Below, piece after piece: positions 33,518 to 41,920 of a DNA stretch of 51,872 bases. The DNA lies in the NCBI GenBank assembly GCA_018816095.1, contig JAHIWP010000025.1:1-51872 (forward strand), written 5' to 3'. The first letter of the stretch is position 1, and the number at the start of each line of letters is the position of its first letter. The translations under genes and the position numbers were made by a program. The notes beneath the pieces are model-generated. The model made no database searches. It worked only from the letters and a program-made list of their open reading frames with translations, and was not told the origin of the DNA. The stretch is from Gammaproteobacteria bacterium. GTDB lineage: Bacteria > Pseudomonadota > Gammaproteobacteria > Pseudomonadales > Pseudomonadaceae.

Positions 33518-34591
33518 TTAAAAACGATGACGCTGGATAAAACCCTTATCAAGAAAATCTTTCCAGCGACCATACAGTTGCCCGCCGGCGCTGTAGCCGT
33601 GCCAGTCCAGCAGGGCACCGCCGTCACCGGTGGCCAGCAGGGCCAGGCTCTGTCGCTGCGGGCGGTAGCGTTTGAGCGGCAAACCGCGCAGCGCCGCACT
33701 CAGGTTGGTGGCCAGCACCGGGCCCTGGCGCACCGCATACACCCCGCTCTTGCGTGCACCGGGCAGGCTGGCGCAGTCGCCCACGGCAAAAATAGTCGGG
33801 TGGGTGTAGCTCTGCAGGGTGGGTGCAATCAGCACAAAGCCGCGCTCATCGCAGCCCAGGCCGCTGTGCTGTGGCCAGGCAAAGGCCTTGGCGCCGCTGG
33901 CCAGTAATAACCGTTGGCCGCGCCAGACCGGCGCATTAGCGCTGAGCAGGCAGTCGTTCTCGATGCGGCTGATTGGGCAATCCTCGCGCACTTCTACGCG
34001 GTGTTGGCGCAAGTGGCCGAGCGCGCGCAAACGCAGCCCAGGGGACAAACCATCGAGCAGATGGCCGGCGCAGAACAGGGACAGGTGCGGCACTTTATCG
34101 GCCAAGGCCAGGGCCAACTCGACCCCCGCCGCACCGCCACCGAGAATGGCCATGGGCTGAGGCGTGGCCTGCCACTGCTGCCAACCGGCCAGGAATTTAT
34201 CAAAGGGTTTGACGGCCAGCAGCTGCATGGCCTCGCCCTGCTGCGGCGGTGCGCTGATCTGCGCGCCGACGTTTAGCGATAACCAGCTGGCGTCGAGGGT
34301 GCGGCCATCATCAAGCTGCACCTGCTGCTGGGCGGCGGACAAGCTTTCCACCGGGCTGATGATCAGCTCAACCTTGGCCGCGCGACACAAGGCTTGCAGC
34401 TCTACCTGGCAATCAGCAGCGCTATGCCGGCCGGCCAGCAGCCCGGGCAACATGCCGGAATACCAGGCCACCGGTCCGGCACTCAGCAGGGCGATCCGCC
34501 CCGGCGGCCGTTCGACCAAGGCCCAGCGCCGCAACACCCCGAGGTGAGCGTGGCCGGCGCCGATTAATAGCAGGTCATAGTGATGAGTCAC
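33518..34591 (-). CDS. NDH-2/SelD-type FAD oxidoreductase
   Basis: Pyridine-nucleotide-disulfide-oxidoreductase-fold flavoprotein of 357 aa. The FAD motif is LLIGAGHAHLGVLRRW, the NAD motif is ILGGGAAGVELALALAD, and AVGDCA closes the FAD site. There is no redox cysteine pair. The N-terminal sequence style (GAGHAHL, AWYSGMLPGLLAGR) is that of the flavoprotein domain found fused in front of selenophosphate synthetase SelD in many bacteria; here the SelD part is absent. It is the last gene of the arsS operon, 64 bp after the DUF3047 gene. The substrate is unknown. Confidence 0.82.
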   Translation of the reverse strand: MTHHYDLLLIGAGHAHLGVLRRWALVERPPGRIALLSAGPVAWYSGMLPGLLAGRHSAADCQVELQALCRAAKVELIISPVESLSAAQQQVQLDDGRTLDASWLSLNVGAQISAPPQQGEAMQLLAVKPFDKFLAGWQQWQATPQPMAILGGGAAGVELALALADKVPHLSLFCAGHLLDGLSPGLRLRALGHLRQHRVEVREDCPISRIENDCLLSANAPVWRGQRLLLASGAKAFAWPQHSGLGCDERGFVLIAPTLQSYTHPTIFAVGDCASLPGARKSGVYAVRQGPVLATNLSAALRGLPLKRYRPQRQSLALLATGDGGALLDWHGYSAGGQLYGRWKDFLDKGFIQRHRF

Positions 34592-34655
34592 GCCAAGCTT
34601 CCATAGGTTGGGTGTCTGACAGTGGCTGCATGGTAAAGACTTACCCGCGCTGTTG

Positions 34656-35366
34656 TCAGGGCAGCTTGCGTATTTGTGGTGCGGCGAAATAACTGGTCAC
34701 GCTTTCACCGGTGTTGTCGCTGTCGGCAGCGAACACCACACCGAGGATCTTGCGTGGCGCGCTGCCGAAGGCGGCAGTGGCGTCGGCGCGTAGATCGCGG
34801 GATTCCGTCAGCCACTCGCCCAGTGCGGCTTCTGGGCCGCGCAGCACGCGCATTTCCACGGTTTCGGTGTAGGCGCTGCGGGCATGGCTACCGGGGGCTT
34901 CACGGTTATCCCAGACGTAGCTAAGGGTCGCCGCCGGCAAGTCGGGGTCGAAGAAGGTGCGCGCCAGCCGCAGCTTTTGCCGGGTGACAAAACTCAGCGA
35001 GTCCAGTGGGTAATCCAGCAGCACATAGACCCGTGCGGCGTAGTCATCGCCTTCGCGGGTGGCGAAACGGGCCTGATCCAGATGCTGTTCGGTGCGCCAC
35101 TGCCAGCTCAGCTGCCAGGGCTGATCGCCAGGTAGATCGAGCGGATGTAACAGCCCGCCGGCAGCCGCATCGGCGTTGATGCGTAAGACAGATTGGCCGT
35201 CCAGCTCGACCAGCGTGCGCTGCGATGGCTTGAGTTTGGGAATGTCTGCCAGCTTCCACGGCGTCGACCATGCAGCTGCCGGCGGGCCTGCTGTCCAGGG
35301 CGTCAGCAGGTTCTCCGCCTGGGTCAGCGGTGCGGCGAGGATGAGCCCCAGCACTAACGTGCGCAT
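34656..35366 (-). CDS. Secreted DUF3047 protein
   Basis: Protein of 236 aa with a short signal peptide (MRTLVLGLILAAPLTQA). The body is a beta-rich DUF3047 domain: WQLSWQWRTEQHLDQ, GDDYAARVYVLLDYPL, LSYVWDNREAPGS and ILGVVFAADSDNTGE. The fold suggests a jelly-roll carbohydrate- or ligand-binding protein in the periplasm. The ATG shares one base with the stop of the preceding gene (TGATG), so it is translated in coupling with the TVP38 oxidoreductase. The role in the operon is unknown. Confidence 0.83.
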   Translation of the reverse strand: MRTLVLGLILAAPLTQAENLLTPWTAGPPAAAWSTPWKLADIPKLKPSQRTLVELDGQSVLRINADAAAGGLLHPLDLPGDQPWQLSWQWRTEQHLDQARFATREGDDYAARVYVLLDYPLDSLSFVTRQKLRLARTFFDPDLPAATLSYVWDNREAPGSHARSAYTETVEMRVLRGPEAALGEWLTESRDLRADATAAFGSAPRKILGVVFAADSDNTGESVTSYFAAPQIRKLP

Positions 35367-37507
35367 CAGCTGCGCCGCCAGGTGTGGAAGTGCTCGACCA
35401 ACCGCAGCAGCCCTTGCGGGGCATGGGCGCGTTTCCATTCGCCGGCGGCGTACTTGTTCGCCTCGCTCATGGTCGGGTAGCTGTGGATGGTGCCGAGAAT
35501 TTTGTTCAGGCCCAGGTTGTACTTCATCGCCAGCACGTACTCGGTGAGCAGTTCACCGGCGTGTTCGCCAACGATAGTGACGCCGAGAATGCGGTCTTTG
35601 CCGGGCGTGGTCAGCACCTGCACATAGCCATGGGCGGCCTCATCGGCGATGGCGCGGTCGAGGTCGTCGATGCTGTAGCGGGTCACTTCATAGGCGACGT
35701 TTTGCGCTTGTGCTTCCGCTTCACTGAGGCCAACGCGGGCTACTTCCGGGTCAGTGAAGGTGCAGTGTGGAATCACCCGGTAATCCGCCTTGAAGCGTTT
35801 AAAACCGGCAAACAGCGCGTTGACCGCCGCGTACCAGGCTTGGTGGGCCGCCACGTGGGTGAACTGATACGGCCCGGTGACATCGCCCACCGCAAATATA
35901 TTGGGGAAGCGCGTGGCCAGGTATTCGTCAGTCTCCAACGTGCCATTGTCGCGCAGCGTCAGGCCTAGCTCCTCAGCCCCGTAGCCGCTGACATTAGCTT
36001 TACGGCCGAGGGCCAGCAGCAGGCAGTCGAAGGCGATGGTCACCGGTTCGCCGGTGTCCAGGTTGCGGGCGATCATGCGGGTTTCGCCGTCGACCACTTC
36101 AAAGCGCTCGGCCTGATGACCCAGGCGCAGGTCGACGCCGTCGGCACGCAGGCTGGCCATTACCGCTTCGCTGGCGTTGGCGTCTTCACGGGGCAGCAGG
36201 CGGCCACCGCGTTCCACTTGAATCACTTGGCTGCCAAGGCGTTGGAAGGCCTGCGAGAGTTCGCAACCAATCGGCCCGCCGCCCAACACCAGCAGCCAGC
36301 GCGGCTGCTGGCGCAGGGTCCAGATGGTGTCGGAGGTGTAAGCCTGCACCTGCTCAAGGCCAGGAATATCGGGCACGAACGGCCGCGCGCCGGCGGCGAT
36401 GATCAGGTTGCGGCTGCTCAGGGTTTGGCCATTGACCTCGACGGTCCAGGGCGAAAGGATCTTCGCTTCACCCTCAATCACTTCGACGCCCAGGCCGGTG
36501 TAGCGCTCCACCGAGTCATGCGGCTCGATGTCGGCGATCACCCGCTGGATGCGCTGCATCACGGCTGGGAAATCCACCTGGCCCTGCACGCCGGTAAAGC
36601 CCAGGGCTTCACCCTTTTTCAGTTCGTTGGCCAGTTTGGCCGAGCGCAGCAGCGCCTTGGAGGGTACGCAGCCGGTGTTGAGGCAGTCGCCGCCCATTTG
36701 GTGTTTTTCGATCAAGCTGACCTTGGCCTTCACCGCCGCGGCGATATAGGCGCTGACCAGGCCACCGGCGCCGGCACCAATCACCACCAGGTTGCGGTCG
36801 AAGGTCTTGGGTTTGTGCCAGCCGGCATACACCCGACGCGCCTGGATCAGCCCGAGCAGTTTGCGTGCAATCAGCGGGAACACCCCGAGCAGCACAAAGG
36901 CGCCGAGCAGCCCTGGCGAGAGGATGCCGGACAACGACTCCAGCTGGCCCAGCTCACGCCCGGCATTCACGTACACCAGGGTGCCGGGCAGCATGCCGAG
37001 CTGGCTGACCCACCAATAGGTGCGCAGCGGCAGGCGGGTCAGGCCCATGGCCAGGTTGATCAGGAAGAACGGAAACAGTGGCACCAGACGCAGGGCGAAC
37101 AGGTAGAACGCCCCTTCCCGCTCGACCCCGGCATCGATGCTCGCCAGGCGTTTGCCGAAGCGGCTCTGCACCCAGTCACGCAGCAGAAAGCGGCTGCTGA
37201 GCATGGCCAGGCTCGCGCCCAACGTGGAGGCAAAGGAAATCAGCACGAAGCCTTCGATCAACCCGAACAGCGCCCCGCCGAGCAAGGTCATCAGCGCCGC
37301 GCCGGGTAAGGAAAGTGCCGTGACCGCGACATAGGCGAGAAAGAACAGCCCCGCCGCCAGCCAGGGCTGCTCGGCGACCTGGGTGTTGAGTGCAACTTGC
37401 TGCGCTTTCAGCGCCTCAAGGTTGAGGTACTGGCCAATGTCGAAGACAAAAAAACTGCCGAGCAATGCGAGGATCAAGCCCATCAGGGCGATTTTGCGGC
37501 TATTCAT
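35366..37507 (-). CDS. TVP38/SNARE-associated membrane domain fused to a MerA-type disulfide oxidoreductase
   Basis: Fusion protein of 713 aa. Residues 1-230 form a TVP38/TMEM64 (DedA-like) membrane domain with about six helices, including SLPGAALMTLLGGALFG. Residues 238-713 are a flavoprotein disulfide reductase: FAD motif VVIGAGAGGL (242-250), redox pair GGDCLNTGCVPSK (Cys275, Cys280), a GGGPIGCEL NAD motif and the C-terminal partner HSYPTMSE. The N-terminal heavy-metal domain and C-terminal Cys pair of mercuric reductase are absent. It probably transfers electrons to a thiol, arsenic, selenium or similar substrate at the membrane. It overlaps both neighbours in the operon. Confidence 0.88.
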   Translation of the reverse strand: MNSRKIALMGLILALLGSFFVFDIGQYLNLEALKAQQVALNTQVAEQPWLAAGLFFLAYVAVTALSLPGAALMTLLGGALFGLIEGFVLISFASTLGASLAMLSSRFLLRDWVQSRFGKRLASIDAGVEREGAFYLFALRLVPLFPFFLINLAMGLTRLPLRTYWWVSQLGMLPGTLVYVNAGRELGQLESLSGILSPGLLGAFVLLGVFPLIARKLLGLIQARRVYAGWHKPKTFDRNLVVIGAGAGGLVSAYIAAAVKAKVSLIEKHQMGGDCLNTGCVPSKALLRSAKLANELKKGEALGFTGVQGQVDFPAVMQRIQRVIADIEPHDSVERYTGLGVEVIEGEAKILSPWTVEVNGQTLSSRNLIIAAGARPFVPDIPGLEQVQAYTSDTIWTLRQQPRWLLVLGGGPIGCELSQAFQRLGSQVIQVERGGRLLPREDANASEAVMASLRADGVDLRLGHQAERFEVVDGETRMIARNLDTGEPVTIAFDCLLLALGRKANVSGYGAEELGLTLRDNGTLETDEYLATRFPNIFAVGDVTGPYQFTHVAAHQAWYAAVNALFAGFKRFKADYRVIPHCTFTDPEVARVGLSEAEAQAQNVAYEVTRYSIDDLDRAIADEAAHGYVQVLTTPGKDRILGVTIVGEHAGELLTEYVLAMKYNLGLNKILGTIHSYPTMSEANKYAAGEWKRAHAPQGLLRLVEHFHTWRRS

Positions 37508-38468
37508 CAGTCAGCGCCTCCAGGGCGCAGAGGCTTTGGCACAGGCTAAAACCGGCCAGCAGGGCCTGCGACGGTTGATCCGCCACAGTGCCAAGAATAC
37601 GTGAGCGATAGGACTGCGCCGCCGGGCTGTGGGCGGGCCACTGGCGGTCGAAGTCGGCGAGAAAGGCAGCGTGGTCGTAGTTCAGCGGCAGGGCCTCGAT
37701 AAACAATCCGTCGCGTTGGCAGCGATACAGCGCCGCCGGGTGTGGCGTGGTGGCGATGCGGCTGAGCAGGCCATAGCGACCGCCGGCGAAGTTGGGCAGG
37801 CCGGCCGCGCCGTTATTGACCAACGCGCCATGCTTAAGGTTCAGCGCGACGGCGGCGCAGCTATGGCTGGTGGCCAATACGCGAATGTTCTGTGCGTGTA
37901 GCCAGGCATCAAGCTGCTGTTGGCGGGCCGGTTCACTCAGTGCCTCGCGCGAGCAATTCCAGCCGGCCAGGGACTGCTCATCGCCATGGCTGATGGCGAT
38001 GCGTTGCCCGCCGACGCTGACCAGCGCTGTACTCGGGCGCGCAGCCAAGCGCTCGGCCATACCGGGCAAGCTTTGCACGGTGCCATTTAGCACCTGCTGA
38101 ATGGCATTGGAACGTTCGACTACTTGGTCGTCCACGTTCATCGGGTAGGCGCAGCCGCAGCCGGCACCGCTGTCGTCGGCGCGGCCCAGCTCGGTTTCGA
38201 CATTACCGCGCAGGGTCAGGTGTACGCTCAGCCCTTCTTCAATCTGCTGGAAAATTTGCGGGTCGCGGTCAAACCAGTGGGCATCGCCGTTGAACACCAC
38301 CCGGGCATTGGGTTCGGCCGCCAGGCGCCGTTGCAGCGCTGCCAAGGCCTGACGGTTGCCATACAGGCCGCCGACGACATACAGCACTTGGCAGTCGAAC
38401 AGCGGCTCGCCGCTAAAGGCCTCAGGTGCCAGGCGGTAATCCAGCGGGCAATCGCGGCCAGCGCGCAT
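37500..38468 (-). CDS. Metallophosphoesterase-fold protein with degenerate first motif
   Basis: Protein of 322 aa in which the calcineurin-like order can be traced: VVGGLYGN (motif I; normally D-x-H-G-N), FNGDAHWFD (motif II, GDxxD), LRGNVETE (motif III, GN(H/V)(D/E)), AISHGD and ATSHSC (later His motifs). Motif I has lost both metal ligands, so activity is doubtful or altered. A CGCAYP cysteine patch lies near residue 107. The start shares one base with the symporter stop (TGATG), and its end overlaps the next gene by 8 bp. I place it in the operon as an accessory enzyme or sensor. Confidence 0.72.
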   Translation of the reverse strand: MRAGRDCPLDYRLAPEAFSGEPLFDCQVLYVVGGLYGNRQALAALQRRLAAEPNARVVFNGDAHWFDRDPQIFQQIEEGLSVHLTLRGNVETELGRADDSGAGCGCAYPMNVDDQVVERSNAIQQVLNGTVQSLPGMAERLAARPSTALVSVGGQRIAISHGDEQSLAGWNCSREALSEPARQQQLDAWLHAQNIRVLATSHSCAAVALNLKHGALVNNGAAGLPNFAGGRYGLLSRIATTPHPAALYRCQRDGLFIEALPLNYDHAAFLADFDRQWPAHSPAAQSYRSRILGTVADQPSQALLAGFSLCQSLCALEALTDE

Positions 38469-39853
38469 CAGGCTGCGCCTCGTTGACCGGCGCGCAGCCA
38501 GCCGGGAACCAGATAGCCCAGCACACACAGGCCCAGGCCATACAGGTTAGTGCCGAGTAGTAGGGCGTATTTACCGTCGCCGATGGCCCAGGTTTGTGGG
38601 ATCCAGCCCAGCGTCAGGGCGACGCCCAAGCCTAGTCCGGTCCAGAAACTCAGGTGAAAGCCCAGCCGGGTTGGTGTGGTCAGGCCATGCAGGATAAACA
38701 CCGGCGCCAGGCCGATGACCATGGTGCCGCTGATGGTGGTGGCCTTGAGAATGTCGGTGCCGGCGATCATCGGCAGGTTGCCGAGCAAGGCGAAGACCAC
38801 CATGACGGCCATGCCGACGCCGATGGCCTTCTGCCCCAAGTCGCGACCGGCCAACTTAGGCAGCTCACGCCCGGCCAACTTGGCCAGGCTGGAGAAGGTT
38901 GAGTCCAGGGTTGAGCCCGCGGCAGAGACCATCACCACGGTCATCACCATCAACGCGCCGATGCCCATAGTCTTGGCCAGGGCAGCGGGCACGTTGTCCG
39001 AGGCCGCTAAACCAGTGAGCTGCGCATGCACGCCGATCAGGCTGAAGGCGAGGATGGCGATAAAGCCCAGAACCCCGGCAATCACGAAGGAGCGGCGCAT
39101 GGTTTTCTCTTCGCTGATAAAGCCGCGATCCGTCAGTACCGGGTCATGGAAGCCATAGCTAAAGGCTTGCAGGCCGGCGACCAACAGCAGGTCGACGCCG
39201 GCGTTCAGCGCCCAGTGGCTGGTGCTGGCCAGCTCGCTGGGCGAGTGCTGTGGCAGCACCAAGCCGAGCACCCAGACCAGCGCGACGATAAAGATCGCCG
39301 CCTGCGCTGCATCGGTAAGGATCGAGCTACGCAGGCCGCCGCGCAGGCTGTAGGCCAGGGTCACGGCGGTAAACAGCAGAGCCGCGCCGATAAACTCAAG
39401 GCTGCCGGCGTCGCCGTAATAACCGCCAACCACGGCGGTGTTGCTCCACACCTCGTTAAACAGGCGGATCAGGATGGCAGCAGAAAACGCCAGCGCCGCG
39501 CCACGGCCGTAATGGCTGCTGAGAAAGCTCACCAGCCCCGTGGCCGCATAACGCCGACGCAGGCGGTAGATGACGAAGCCGGTCAGCGGAATCGACAGCC
39601 AATACATGGCGTAGGCCAGGCCGCCGATCAGGCCGTAACTGGCCCCCAGATTGGCGGCGTTGGTCACCGACTTGGCGAAGATCCAGCTGATAAAAATGCT
39701 TGAGGTCAGCAACCAAGGCGCAGCACTGCGGCCTTGATTGTCTTCACCGTTGAAGAAGCCACCGAGGGTCACGGCGCGCGGCGACAGCGCCACCATCAGC
39801 GCGCCATACACCAGCAGAAACCCCCAGAAAAACAGCCCGACCGTGCTGCTCAT
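38468..39853 (-). CDS. Sodium:solute symporter family permease
   Basis: Polytopic inner-membrane protein of 461 aa with about 12-13 helices and the SSS fold signature: WLLTSSIFISWIFAKSVTNA, AYSLRGGLRSSILTDAAQAA, and AAGSTLDSTFSSLAKL, the sodium-site helix. It is divergent in sequence from the proline and pantothenate carriers, and its solute cannot be named. It starts 15 bp after arsS, and its stop is fused to the next start, so it should carry a precursor or product of the ArsS pathway. Confidence 0.82.
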   Translation of the reverse strand: MSSTVGLFFWGFLLVYGALMVALSPRAVTLGGFFNGEDNQGRSAAPWLLTSSIFISWIFAKSVTNAANLGASYGLIGGLAYAMYWLSIPLTGFVIYRLRRRYAATGLVSFLSSHYGRGAALAFSAAILIRLFNEVWSNTAVVGGYYGDAGSLEFIGAALLFTAVTLAYSLRGGLRSSILTDAAQAAIFIVALVWVLGLVLPQHSPSELASTSHWALNAGVDLLLVAGLQAFSYGFHDPVLTDRGFISEEKTMRRSFVIAGVLGFIAILAFSLIGVHAQLTGLAASDNVPAALAKTMGIGALMVMTVVMVSAAGSTLDSTFSSLAKLAGRELPKLAGRDLGQKAIGVGMAVMVVFALLGNLPMIAGTDILKATTISGTMVIGLAPVFILHGLTTPTRLGFHLSFWTGLGLGVALTLGWIPQTWAIGDGKYALLLGTNLYGLGLCVLGYLVPGWLRAGQRGAA

Positions 39854-39868
39854 AGGTTCACTCCAAGC

Positions 39869-40846
39869 TTATTCATTTAATGCGCCGCCACAGCTGGAAC
39901 CCTGTCCGGCGGTGCAGGCGTAGCAATGATCGCGGGTAACAATCGGGTTGCCGTCGAGTGTGGCGCCGAGCAGGTCACGCAAATGCGCGCGTTCGCGGCC
40001 AATCAACTGACCTTGCAGGGGGAGCGGCAGATCAAGCATCTGGTTGAAATCACAGTCGTACAGATAGCCCTGCCAGTCGACGCTGACCAGCGCACGGCAC
40101 ATCAAGTCGTCGAGGTTTTCCGGTCGGTAGCTGTCGCGCAGCAATTGCATGTAGTCGTTGAACTGGCCTTTGCTGACCAGGGTGCTGCCAAAGCGCGCAA
40201 TCGGCTGGTTGGTAATGGTCAGCAGGTGGTTGAAGACGATGCCGAAATCTTCCGCCAGGTGCTGCTTATAGTCGGCCTCAAGGCCTTGCTGAGGAGGCGG
40301 CAGGCTTGGCCCTTGCGGGTTGTACACCAGATTGAGAATCAGGCCGCTGCCGGGTTGGCCGTAGCCAAGCGCGTTGAGCTGTTGCAGGCCTTTGATACTG
40401 GCCTCGAATACGCCATCGCCGCGCTGTTTATCGACGTTATCCCGTGAGTAACAGGGCAAAGAGGCACTGACTTCGACGCCTTGCTCGGCGAGGAACTGGG
40501 CCAGGTCTTCATAGCCGGGCTCACTGAGGATGGTCAGGTTGCAGCGGTCGATCACCCGCAGGCCTTCACGGCGCGCATGTACAACAATTTCGCGAAAGCG
40601 TGGGTGCATTTCCGGTGCGCCGCCGGTGAGGTCCAAGGTTTGCACCGGGTGCGCATCGATTACTTGATGCAATAGTGCAAGGCTTTCGTCGGTCATTTCC
40701 TCGGTGCGCGTCGGCCCGGCATTCACGTGGCAATGCAGGCAGCGCTGGTTGCAGCGGTAGGTCAGGTTGATCTGCAGCGCTTCCAGTGGCCCCCGGCGGA
40801 TTGCCGGAAAAGCCAGTTGGTCGAGCAAGGGCAGCATGGCGTGCAC
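39869..40846 (-). CDS. arsS: Radical SAM protein ArsS (arsenosugar biosynthesis type)
   Basis: Radical SAM enzyme of 325 aa. The cluster motif is RCNQRCLHCH (Cys32, Cys36, Cys39), followed by LTGGAPEM. The C-terminal DUF3641-type region ends with a cysteine-rich tail, HCYACTAGQGSSCGGALNE, which is the ArsS hallmark. The family adds the 5'-deoxyadenosyl group to methylated arsenic. GTG 40846 was chosen because GGAG is 6 bases before it; the in-frame ATG 40837 is 15 bases away. It is first of a six-gene operon. No arsM lies nearby, so the real substrate may not be dimethylarsinate. Confidence 0.87.
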   Translation of the reverse strand: MHAMLPLLDQLAFPAIRRGPLEALQINLTYRCNQRCLHCHVNAGPTRTEEMTDESLALLHQVIDAHPVQTLDLTGGAPEMHPRFREIVVHARREGLRVIDRCNLTILSEPGYEDLAQFLAEQGVEVSASLPCYSRDNVDKQRGDGVFEASIKGLQQLNALGYGQPGSGLILNLVYNPQGPSLPPPQQGLEADYKQHLAEDFGIVFNHLLTITNQPIARFGSTLVSKGQFNDYMQLLRDSYRPENLDDLMCRALVSVDWQGYLYDCDFNQMLDLPLPLQGQLIGRERAHLRDLLGATLDGNPIVTRDHCYACTAGQGSSCGGALNE

Positions 40847-41040: not shown

Positions 41041-41457
41041 ATGTTGCGTTTGAGTCTGTTTTTTCTCGCGGGCTTTCTGGCCGTGCCGTTTTTTCACCAG
41101 CCTGTGCTGGGCTTGCTGCATGCACTGGCAGTGGTGCCGTTTGCGCCGTTCAACCTGAGCCCTACTGCGCCATTGGGAGTGCCTGCGTTACTTTCGGCAT
41201 CCTTCTGGGGTGGGCTCTGGGCGGTGGTAATGCTGCTGGTGCTGCGTTGGCAGGCAGGCACCCCACAACCTTGGCTCAAGGCCCTGCTGTTCGGCGGTAT
41301 CGCCCTGACCACCGTCGCTTTGCTGGTGGTGTTTCCACTCAAGGGGATGGGCTTTGATCCGGTGAAGCTGCCGGGGCGTTTTCTGATCGGCTTTCTGGTT
41401 AACGCCGCCTGGGGTGTCGGCACGTTGATTTTTGCTCGAACCCTGTTGCCACGTTAA
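41041..41457 (+). CDS. Small membrane protein next to the BLUF gene
   Basis: Protein of 138 aa with four hydrophobic segments (about 1-32, 47-68, 80-102, 113-134) and no known catalytic motif. The start is ATG 41041, with GGGGAGC just before. The BLUF gene begins 19 bp after its stop, so the two are co-transcribed. I do not recognise a named family; homologs appear as conserved hypothetical membrane proteins. Confidence 0.75.
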   Translation: MLRLSLFFLAGFLAVPFFHQPVLGLLHALAVVPFAPFNLSPTAPLGVPALLSASFWGGLWAVVMLLVLRWQAGTPQPWLKALLFGGIALTTVALLVVFPLKGMGFDPVKLPGRFLIGFLVNAAWGVGTLIFARTLLPR

Positions 41458-41476
41458 TTTAATAAAGGAGATCACC

Positions 41477-41920
41477 ATGCTTGTCCGCCTCACCTATGCC
41501 AGCCGAGCCAGTCACAGCGTGTCTGCTGAGCTGATTCGCGAAATTCTCGACAGTTCGCAGCGTAACAACCCGCGTAAAGGCCTGACCGGGATTCTCTGCT
41601 GCAACGCCGATATCTTTCTGCAGGCACTGGAAGGTCCGCGGACCGAGGTTAATGCCTTGTACAACCGTCTGGCCGATGACACCCGGCACAAGGAGTTGAC
41701 CATCCTCGACTACGCCGAAATCAGCATGCGCCGTTACAGCAACTGGAGCATGGGTTGGGCCGGGGCCAAGCAGACCAACCGAGAGCTGTTTCTCAAGTAT
41801 TCGGCCAGCGACCGGTTTGATCCGTTCAACATGAGCGCCGAGCAAATTACCGGTCTGCTACTGGAGCTGAGTGAGACCGTCAGCACGCTTAAATCGCCTG
41901 TTCTCAGTTAGAACCTCAGC
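41477..41920 (+). CDS. BLUF-domain blue-light photoreceptor
   Basis: Single-domain BLUF flavoprotein of 144 aa that senses blue light through FAD. Key residues are Tyr7 (LTYASRA), Asn30/31 (QRNNPRKGLTGIL) and Gln49 (FLQALEGP), with Trp90-Ser-Met92 (NWSMGW) in the switching loop, all matching the AppA-type photocycle set. There is no output domain, so it must act on a partner protein. AAAGGAG lies 6 bases before ATG 41477. The reading frame closes with TAG at about 41909-41911, slightly before the coordinate given. It pairs with the upstream membrane protein. Confidence 0.88.

Follow-up and report, generated by a model that had tools for sequence, protein, structure and literature searches.

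An ArsS operon of a Pseudomonadaceae bacterium that lacks ArsM and contains a symporter and a Cys-x-Cys metallophosphoesterase-fold protein

Arsenosugars are major arsenic species of aquatic life, and enzymes of the ArsS family couple As(III) to 5'-deoxyadenosyl taken from S-adenosylmethionine (SAM). What supplies ArsS with arsenic when the methyltransferase ArsM is missing? The question is raised by an operon (33518..40846) on contig JAHIWP010000025.1 of a Gammaproteobacteria bacterium from the Pseudomonadaceae (GCA_018816095.1). The whole stretch analysed, 51,872 nt, is referred to as the window. Six minus-strand genes, read from 40846 down to 33518, code for ArsS, a symporter, a metallophosphoesterase-fold protein, a TVP38-disulfide reductase fusion, a DUF3047 protein and a flavoprotein. 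This six-gene operon had been described in a sequence-only reading with gaps of 15, -1, -8, -1 and 64 bp, and recomputation gave the same values. ArsS operons for arsenosugars are already known; new is an arsenosugar operon that lacks ArsM but has a symporter and a metallophosphoesterase-fold protein with a Cys-x-Cys (CxC) motif. We favour, by a modest margin for the mechanism as a whole, an arsenosugar-type pathway that would be fed by imported arsenic rather than by home-made dimethylarsenic.

The first gene of the operon (39869..40846, minus strand; 325 aa, GTG start) codes for the radical SAM enzyme ArsS, which forms C-As bonds. It matches TIGR04167 with 450.8 bits, above the curated cut-off of 300. 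The CX3CX2C cluster motif is CNQRCLHC, and the Cys/Sec-rich C-terminus is CYACTAGQGSSCGG. With an annotated ArsS from a Burkholderia glumae plasmid, the protein shares 59% identity.

The association of the other genes with ArsS was analyzed in 198 Pseudomonadaceae genomes, 49 with ArsS above the TIGR04167 cut-off and 149 without, using Fisher tests. Weaker matches to the ArsS model, present in 190 genomes, were taken as other radical SAM proteins. The sequence-only reading had named a lack of co-occurrence with arsS as a refutation, and the result did not refute it: among the 198 genomes, the symporter (26/49 versus 0/149) and the metallophosphoesterase-fold protein (21/49 versus 0/149) are found only where ArsS is present. 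With E thresholds that were chosen after a clear gap was visible in the match lists, the glycosyltransferase TIGR04283 (E <= 1e-42) occurs in 49/49 ArsS genomes and 0/149 others, and the flavoprotein (E <= 5e-73) in 49/49 versus 9/149. For TIGR04283, NCBI's own cut-off is passed in 34 of the 49, and the best match in any ArsS-free genome has an E-value of 6e-27; the NCBI cut-off for the flavoprotein is passed in only 2 genomes. The second glycosyltransferase, TIGR04282 (at 1e-15), is present in all 49 ArsS genomes and in 20 of the 149 without ArsS. We are highly confident that the symporter and the metallophosphoesterase-fold protein belong to the ArsS/TIGR04283 pathway.

Gene neighbourhoods agree with these distributions. 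The stretches around ArsS in the other 48 genomes, some of them cut by contig ends, contain the TVP38 fusion (41), TIGR04283 (39), the symporter (24), TIGR04282 (22), the metallophosphoesterase-fold protein (20), the flavoprotein (17), the DUF3047 protein (6) and ArsM (3). The gene order of the operon is repeated in Pseudomonas, Halopseudomonas and Stutzerimonas, with differing flanking genes. A metallophosphoesterase query retrieved 52 named loci, which overlap in part with the 48 genomes; 47 of them have a complete or partial ArsS, and 43 have the symporter. The five loci without ArsS (L107, L123, L124, L128 and L129) are all on short contigs or lie less than 4 kb from a contig end, and L124 has another radical SAM gene. 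Phylum-wide, the metallophosphoesterase-fold protein is rare (7 of 398 genomes, 2 of these already counted). Among plasmid records, it was found in 48 of 72,556 at 1e-5 (47 from Burkholderia, one from Azonexus).

More distant loci show which partners stay together. In Adlercreutzia sp. ZJ304 (L120:9971-11995), a single frame of 674 residues comprises the metallophosphoesterase-fold protein and a full-length ArsS that scores 373.6 bits, and the symporter gene adjoins it; the organism is an actinobacterium. Five distant Pseudomonadota genomes with the metallophosphoesterase-fold protein all have TIGR04283 above cut-off. In one (G549), ArsS is encoded beside the metallophosphoesterase-fold protein. 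The other four (G263, G330, G365 and G565) have that protein with the symporter, but no ArsS above cut-off; another radical SAM protein is encoded together with the TVP38 fusion in one run of genes (G263, G330, G365) or on another contig (G565). This other radical SAM family (loci L153, L151, L152 and L159 for G263, G330, G365 and G565, respectively), with 70% identity between G365 and G565, seems to stand in for ArsS. Its best NCBIfam match is NF049973 (98.8 bits for G365, cut-off 380). The carrier may be exchanged as well: in the metagenome-derived locus L126, a gene of the MFS carrier type overlaps the metallophosphoesterase gene, and the B. glumae plasmid island has an MFS gene that is 68% identical. 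Two loci (L093, L150) have no carrier beside the metallophosphoesterase-fold protein. The CxC protein is thus accompanied by a carrier and a radical SAM enzyme in most of the loci read, even when one of these two partners is exchanged.

The lack of ArsM, noted for the operon from its sequence, extends to the genome. One ArsM protein query (1e-20) gave no match in the source genome, which is 87% complete, and NF008823 gave none above the generic level. The same holds for six relatives of the genus that are listed as 100% complete (G063, G147, G155, G159, G175 and G197). Altogether, an ArsM-like protein is absent from 41 of the 49 ArsS genomes by both searches; NF008823 scores are 171-202 bits in the other 8, and all other matches reach at most 64 bits. 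Among the 149 ArsS-free genomes, this ArsM type occurs in one only (G193:C53:43555-44595), from a genus (g5) in which ArsS is common, and is perhaps a remnant of the pathway. Because 41 of 49 ArsS genomes show no ArsM, such Pseudomonadaceae either rely on arsenic that has been methylated by others or have other ArsS substrates. In an ArsS tree (FastTree), genomes with ArsM do not group together, and the arsS-arsM operons of G003 and G020 belong to the sister group of the window clade, so that an altered ArsS function need not be assumed. In these operons, arsM occupies the place that the symporter and metallophosphoesterase genes have in the window.

Glycosyltransferases had also been reported as missing. 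This is correct for the operon but not for the genome: TIGR04282 (193.4 bits) and TIGR04283 (266.9 bits), both above cut-off, are encoded by neighbouring genes on contig C71 in the source genome (L132:9640-12247), with an MFS gene adjoining. This second arsenosugar locus adjoins genes that look flagellar by eye, an arrangement common to seven ArsS relatives. In the ArsS-free genome G182, the neighbours and TIGR04282 are kept, whereas TIGR04283 gives no match at 1e-20.

The metallophosphoesterase-fold protein (37500..38468, minus strand) has 322 aa when translated from ATG; the longest ORF (342 aa) starts at 38528. It has no Pfam or NCBIfam match at 1e-3, and a distant relative in L152 has a weak match to Metallophos_2 (18.4 bits, cut-off 27). 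Among PDB entries, a sequence search gave one chance match (E 0.48), and a profile search matched only radical SAM chains, through the ArsS-fused row. The AlphaFold model (pLDDT 93.0) matches a calcineurin-like metallophosphoesterase fold, which confirms the fold of the protein. The alignment (A1) consisted of the window protein and 51 of 58 fetched sequences, leaving out three malformed references and four near-duplicates. Motif I (DxH) is found in 0/57 sequences. The last motif (motif V, GHxH) is also found in 0/57, its last His being lost; His-x-Cys stands instead (codons at 37857..37865, minus strand). C-x-C is present in 57/57; in the window protein, it is Cys-Gly-Cys (Cys124/126 in the 342-aa ORF; codons at 38151..38159, minus strand). 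The earlier description of the protein as motif-degenerate thus holds as far as the motifs are concerned, but the protein is not merely degenerate: the conserved Cys-x-Cys together with the lost motifs is its most informative feature.

This feature recalls Car1 of Rufibacter tibetensis, a metallophosphoesterase in which Cys74 and Cys76 are reported to be essential for arsenate reduction (PMC12124457). In a profile comparison, the CxC of the window protein aligns with the Cys74/Cys76 place of Car1-like proteins from ars operons (the sequence of Car1 itself was not part of the comparison). CxC is found in 5/5 of these Car1-like proteins but in 0/5 metallophosphoesterase controls. The two groups belong to the same superfamily, with the GN motif followed 12-15 residues later by CxC, and the Car1-like genes also adjoin arsenic genes. 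They differ in that the Car1-like proteins retain motif I DxH and GHTH, both lost in the window protein, which is encoded with arsS and not with acr3 or arsM. On a Mucilaginibacter robiniae plasmid (L172:3501-4993), two metallophosphoesterase genes are in tandem within one ars operon, and only the product of the first has CxC. Two cyanobacterial plasmids (L174:3501-4325 and L179:3501-4310) code for Car1-like CxC metallophosphoesterases away from any arsenic genes; in both cases, the next gene is again phosphatase-like but lacks CxC.

The symporter (38468..39853, minus strand; 461 aa), a candidate arsenical importer, matches sodium:solute symporter models only weakly (PF00474, 18.6 bits, gathering cut-off 22.8). 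It is likely to be a divergent PF00474 member, since its relative in L152 passes the cut-off with 38.0 bits. Among solved chains, the symporter profile is nearest to the DUR3 urea and SLC5A7 choline carriers (E 1e-4 to 4e-4).

The remaining three genes code for a probable exported protein and for two proteins of redox-related families. The fusion protein (35366..37507, minus strand; 713 aa) joins a TVP38 (VTT) membrane domain to a disulfide reductase similar to MerA and lipoamide dehydrogenase (PF09335, PF07992 and PF02852), and it contains GGDCLNTGCVPSK and HSYPTMSE. The DUF3047 protein (34656..35366, minus strand; 236 aa; PF11249, 182.8 bits for the longest ORF) is likely exported, judged by its N-terminus. 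The flavoprotein (33518..34591, minus strand; 357 aa, GTG start) is of the NDH-2/SelD-N type. It matches TIGR03169, the N-terminal part of SelD fusions, with 294.2 bits (curated cut-off 310, not reached). The 64-bp gap preceding its gene is overlapped by one promoter-like match; overall, such matches are no more frequent than in shuffled sequences. Divergent from arsS (41041-41911, plus strand), an ORF of 138 aa without family matches and a BLUF blue-light sensor are encoded, and both adjoin the operon in many Pseudomonas relatives.

From these parts, we propose the following pathway. The symporter would import an arsenical, and the CxC metallophosphoesterase-fold protein would reduce a pentavalent arsenical to As(III), as Car1 is reported to do with arsenate; this role is suggested by motif and fold. 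ArsS would then attach the 5'-deoxyadenosyl group of SAM to As(III). A step resembling that of methylthioadenosine (MTA) phosphorylase, followed by the TIGR04282/TIGR04283 pair, whose genes co-occur with ArsS, may lead to a sugar product. The TVP38-disulfide reductase and the SelD-N-type flavoprotein may provide electrons or recycle the Cys pair. Transfer of 5'-deoxyadenosyl to arsenic is reported for cyanobacterial ArsS (PMC8552651). Of the function suggested by the sequence-only reading, the order of uptake, reduction and adenosylation by ArsS is retained as the best explanation, while selenium and the lack of glycosyltransferases are not. The operon thus provides a candidate for the missing reduction step and a candidate importer of organoarsenicals, and suggests a way in which Pseudomonas could make organic arsenic from imported arsenic. 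It is tempting to speculate further that a metallophosphoesterase fold, its metal site destroyed, has evolved into a dedicated CxC reductase, which hands As(III), possibly inorganic, to the radical SAM enzyme. C-As compounds would then arise independently of methylation by the cell, and the arsenosugars would either lack their usual methyl groups or be made from imported methylarsenicals. This extended version is tentative and, on our assessment, less likely than not; if true, the route could be widespread in arsS-bearing bacteria without arsM.

Several observations weigh against the proposed pathway. Four of the five distant genomes with the metallophosphoesterase-fold protein carry another radical SAM enzyme instead of ArsS, which rules out strict linkage to ArsS. 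Genomes with the symporter show only a weak tendency to lack ArsM (ArsM in 1/26 genomes with the symporter versus 7/23 without; p 0.019, uncorrected), and for those with the metallophosphoesterase-fold protein the tendency is weaker still (p 0.12). When genomes were paired along the tree, a difference in symporter or metallophosphoesterase went with an opposite difference in ArsM in about 2-3 of 5-7 pairs and with a parallel one in about none, which is not significant. Both symporter and ArsM are present in L101 and L102, and neither is found in 16 of the 49 ArsS genomes. The idea that the symporter and the metallophosphoesterase-fold protein replace ArsM was therefore dropped as weak, also in view of their occurrence together with ArsM in L101/L102 and G021. 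As to the CxC, one of the CxC-free controls is the second copy inside the Mucilaginibacter ars operon, so that an ars context does not require this motif. Whole-profile similarity to the Car1-like proteins (E 1.4e-11) is hardly above that to a mixed control set (E 4e-11; 2 of 7 control rows have CxC), and plain BLASTP of the window protein against a Car1-like protein gives only E 0.048. The motif could therefore be convergent.

The strongest competitor, to which we give about one chance in four, is an ordinary arsenosugar operon that lives on environmental dimethylarsenic (DMA). The symporter would then serve for uptake or efflux; the metallophosphoesterase-fold protein would be no reductase but a scaffold, a sensor or a sugar-phosphate phosphatase acting after MTA phosphorylase. 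MTA phosphorylase is encoded near ArsS in several islands and would yield a sugar-1-phosphate. The D, N, H and H positions, which we take to be the second metal site, are retained. Phosphatase chemistry is, however, difficult to reconcile with the loss of motif I and of the last His of GHxH in all 57 sequences, and a phosphatase has no need of an invariant CxC. Alternatively, arsenic might be methylated by an unrelated enzyme encoded elsewhere, the pathway being standard and the operon only short of a gene. Generic methyltransferases match the ArsM model with up to 64 bits in 49/49 genomes, but their matches are mostly partial (commonly 71-181 of 272 model positions) and occur whether ArsM is present or not, and 41 of these genomes have no ArsM-like protein by either search; we regard this as unlikely. 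Least probable by our estimate, with little chance of being correct, is that flavoprotein and ArsS adenosylate a compound of selenium or another chalcogen. The sequence-only reading had taken the SelD-like flavoprotein as a hint to selenium. Its family is named after fusions with SelD, and selenoprotein members of TIGR04167 are described in PMC9312934 and PMC13188914. Sec inside an enzyme is, however, not a selenium substrate, and in the ArsS of the window the GxxU place is taken by Cys. The flavoprotein follows ArsS in Pseudomonadaceae, as it is found in all ArsS genomes but in few others. In four annotated arsS islands, ArsM is present in two and SelD is listed in none (the source genome was not searched for SelD). 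The proposed arsenosugar-type pathway, fed by imported arsenic, is preferred to each of these alternatives.

How does the window operon compare with known systems? In titles, abstracts and term counts of the literature, where subscription journals are thinly covered, no tie of ArsS to a symporter or a metallophosphoesterase was found, except for PMC12124457. That paper concerns ArsM and a Car1-like protein, and its "ArsS" is a cited ArsSM fusion. The closest island, of about 14 kb, is on the B. glumae plasmid (L165, L166) and codes for the TVP38 fusion, the flavoprotein, TIGR04282, TIGR04283, MTA phosphorylase, an MFS carrier, an ECF sigma factor, CcdA, thioredoxin and ArsS. The metallophosphoesterase gene follows 11 bp on; its product, annotated as hypothetical, is 44% identical to the window protein. 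The island thus shares ArsS, the metallophosphoesterase-fold protein, the TVP38 fusion and the flavoprotein with the window operon, but has an MFS carrier in place of the symporter, and the sigma factor, CcdA and thioredoxin are extra. No arsM is annotated in the island (the plasmid gene table is incomplete), and tblastn of both stretches with four ArsM proteins gave no match at 1e-5. DUF692, DoxX, ECF sigma, zf-HC2, CcdA, thioredoxin, YiiX and DUF547 genes flank the island in L165:1-19638. YiiX, DUF547, CcdA and thioredoxin also occur in an island on an Acinetobacter portensis plasmid (L169). Near ArsS in L150, two genes resemble DUF692 and DoxX when inspected by eye. The Acinetobacter island combines ArsS, the TVP38 fusion, both glycosyltransferases, a phosphate transporter and MTA phosphorylase with a methyltransferase that is 62% identical to the ArsM of L038.

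In Synechocystis, ArsS is reported to act jointly with ArsM (PMC8552651). Another arsenosugar cluster, on the Pseudanabaena plasmid pPg_02 (L168), contains arsM, arsS and genes for two TVP38 proteins and a mercuric-reductase-like protein. Its ArsS is 47% identical to that of the window, and the separate TVP38 (34-35%) and reductase (42%) genes correspond to the two halves of the window fusion. It differs in having arsM, and neither a symporter nor a metallophosphoesterase is listed in the 17-kb stretch. The arsQML genes for arsinothricin in Burkholderia gladioli also comprise a radical SAM enzyme that forms a C-As bond, with a permease adjoining (PMC8552651). ArsL is proposed there to put an aminocarboxypropyl group on inorganic As(III), with methylation only afterwards, while ArsS transfers deoxyadenosyl. 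Since ArsL is reported to act on arsenite before methylation, a methylation-free start has a precedent. Judged by the pathway genes of the B. glumae, Acinetobacter and cyanobacterial islands, the operon of the window represents an arsenosugar gene set in rearranged form, with two new members, the symporter and the metallophosphoesterase-fold protein.

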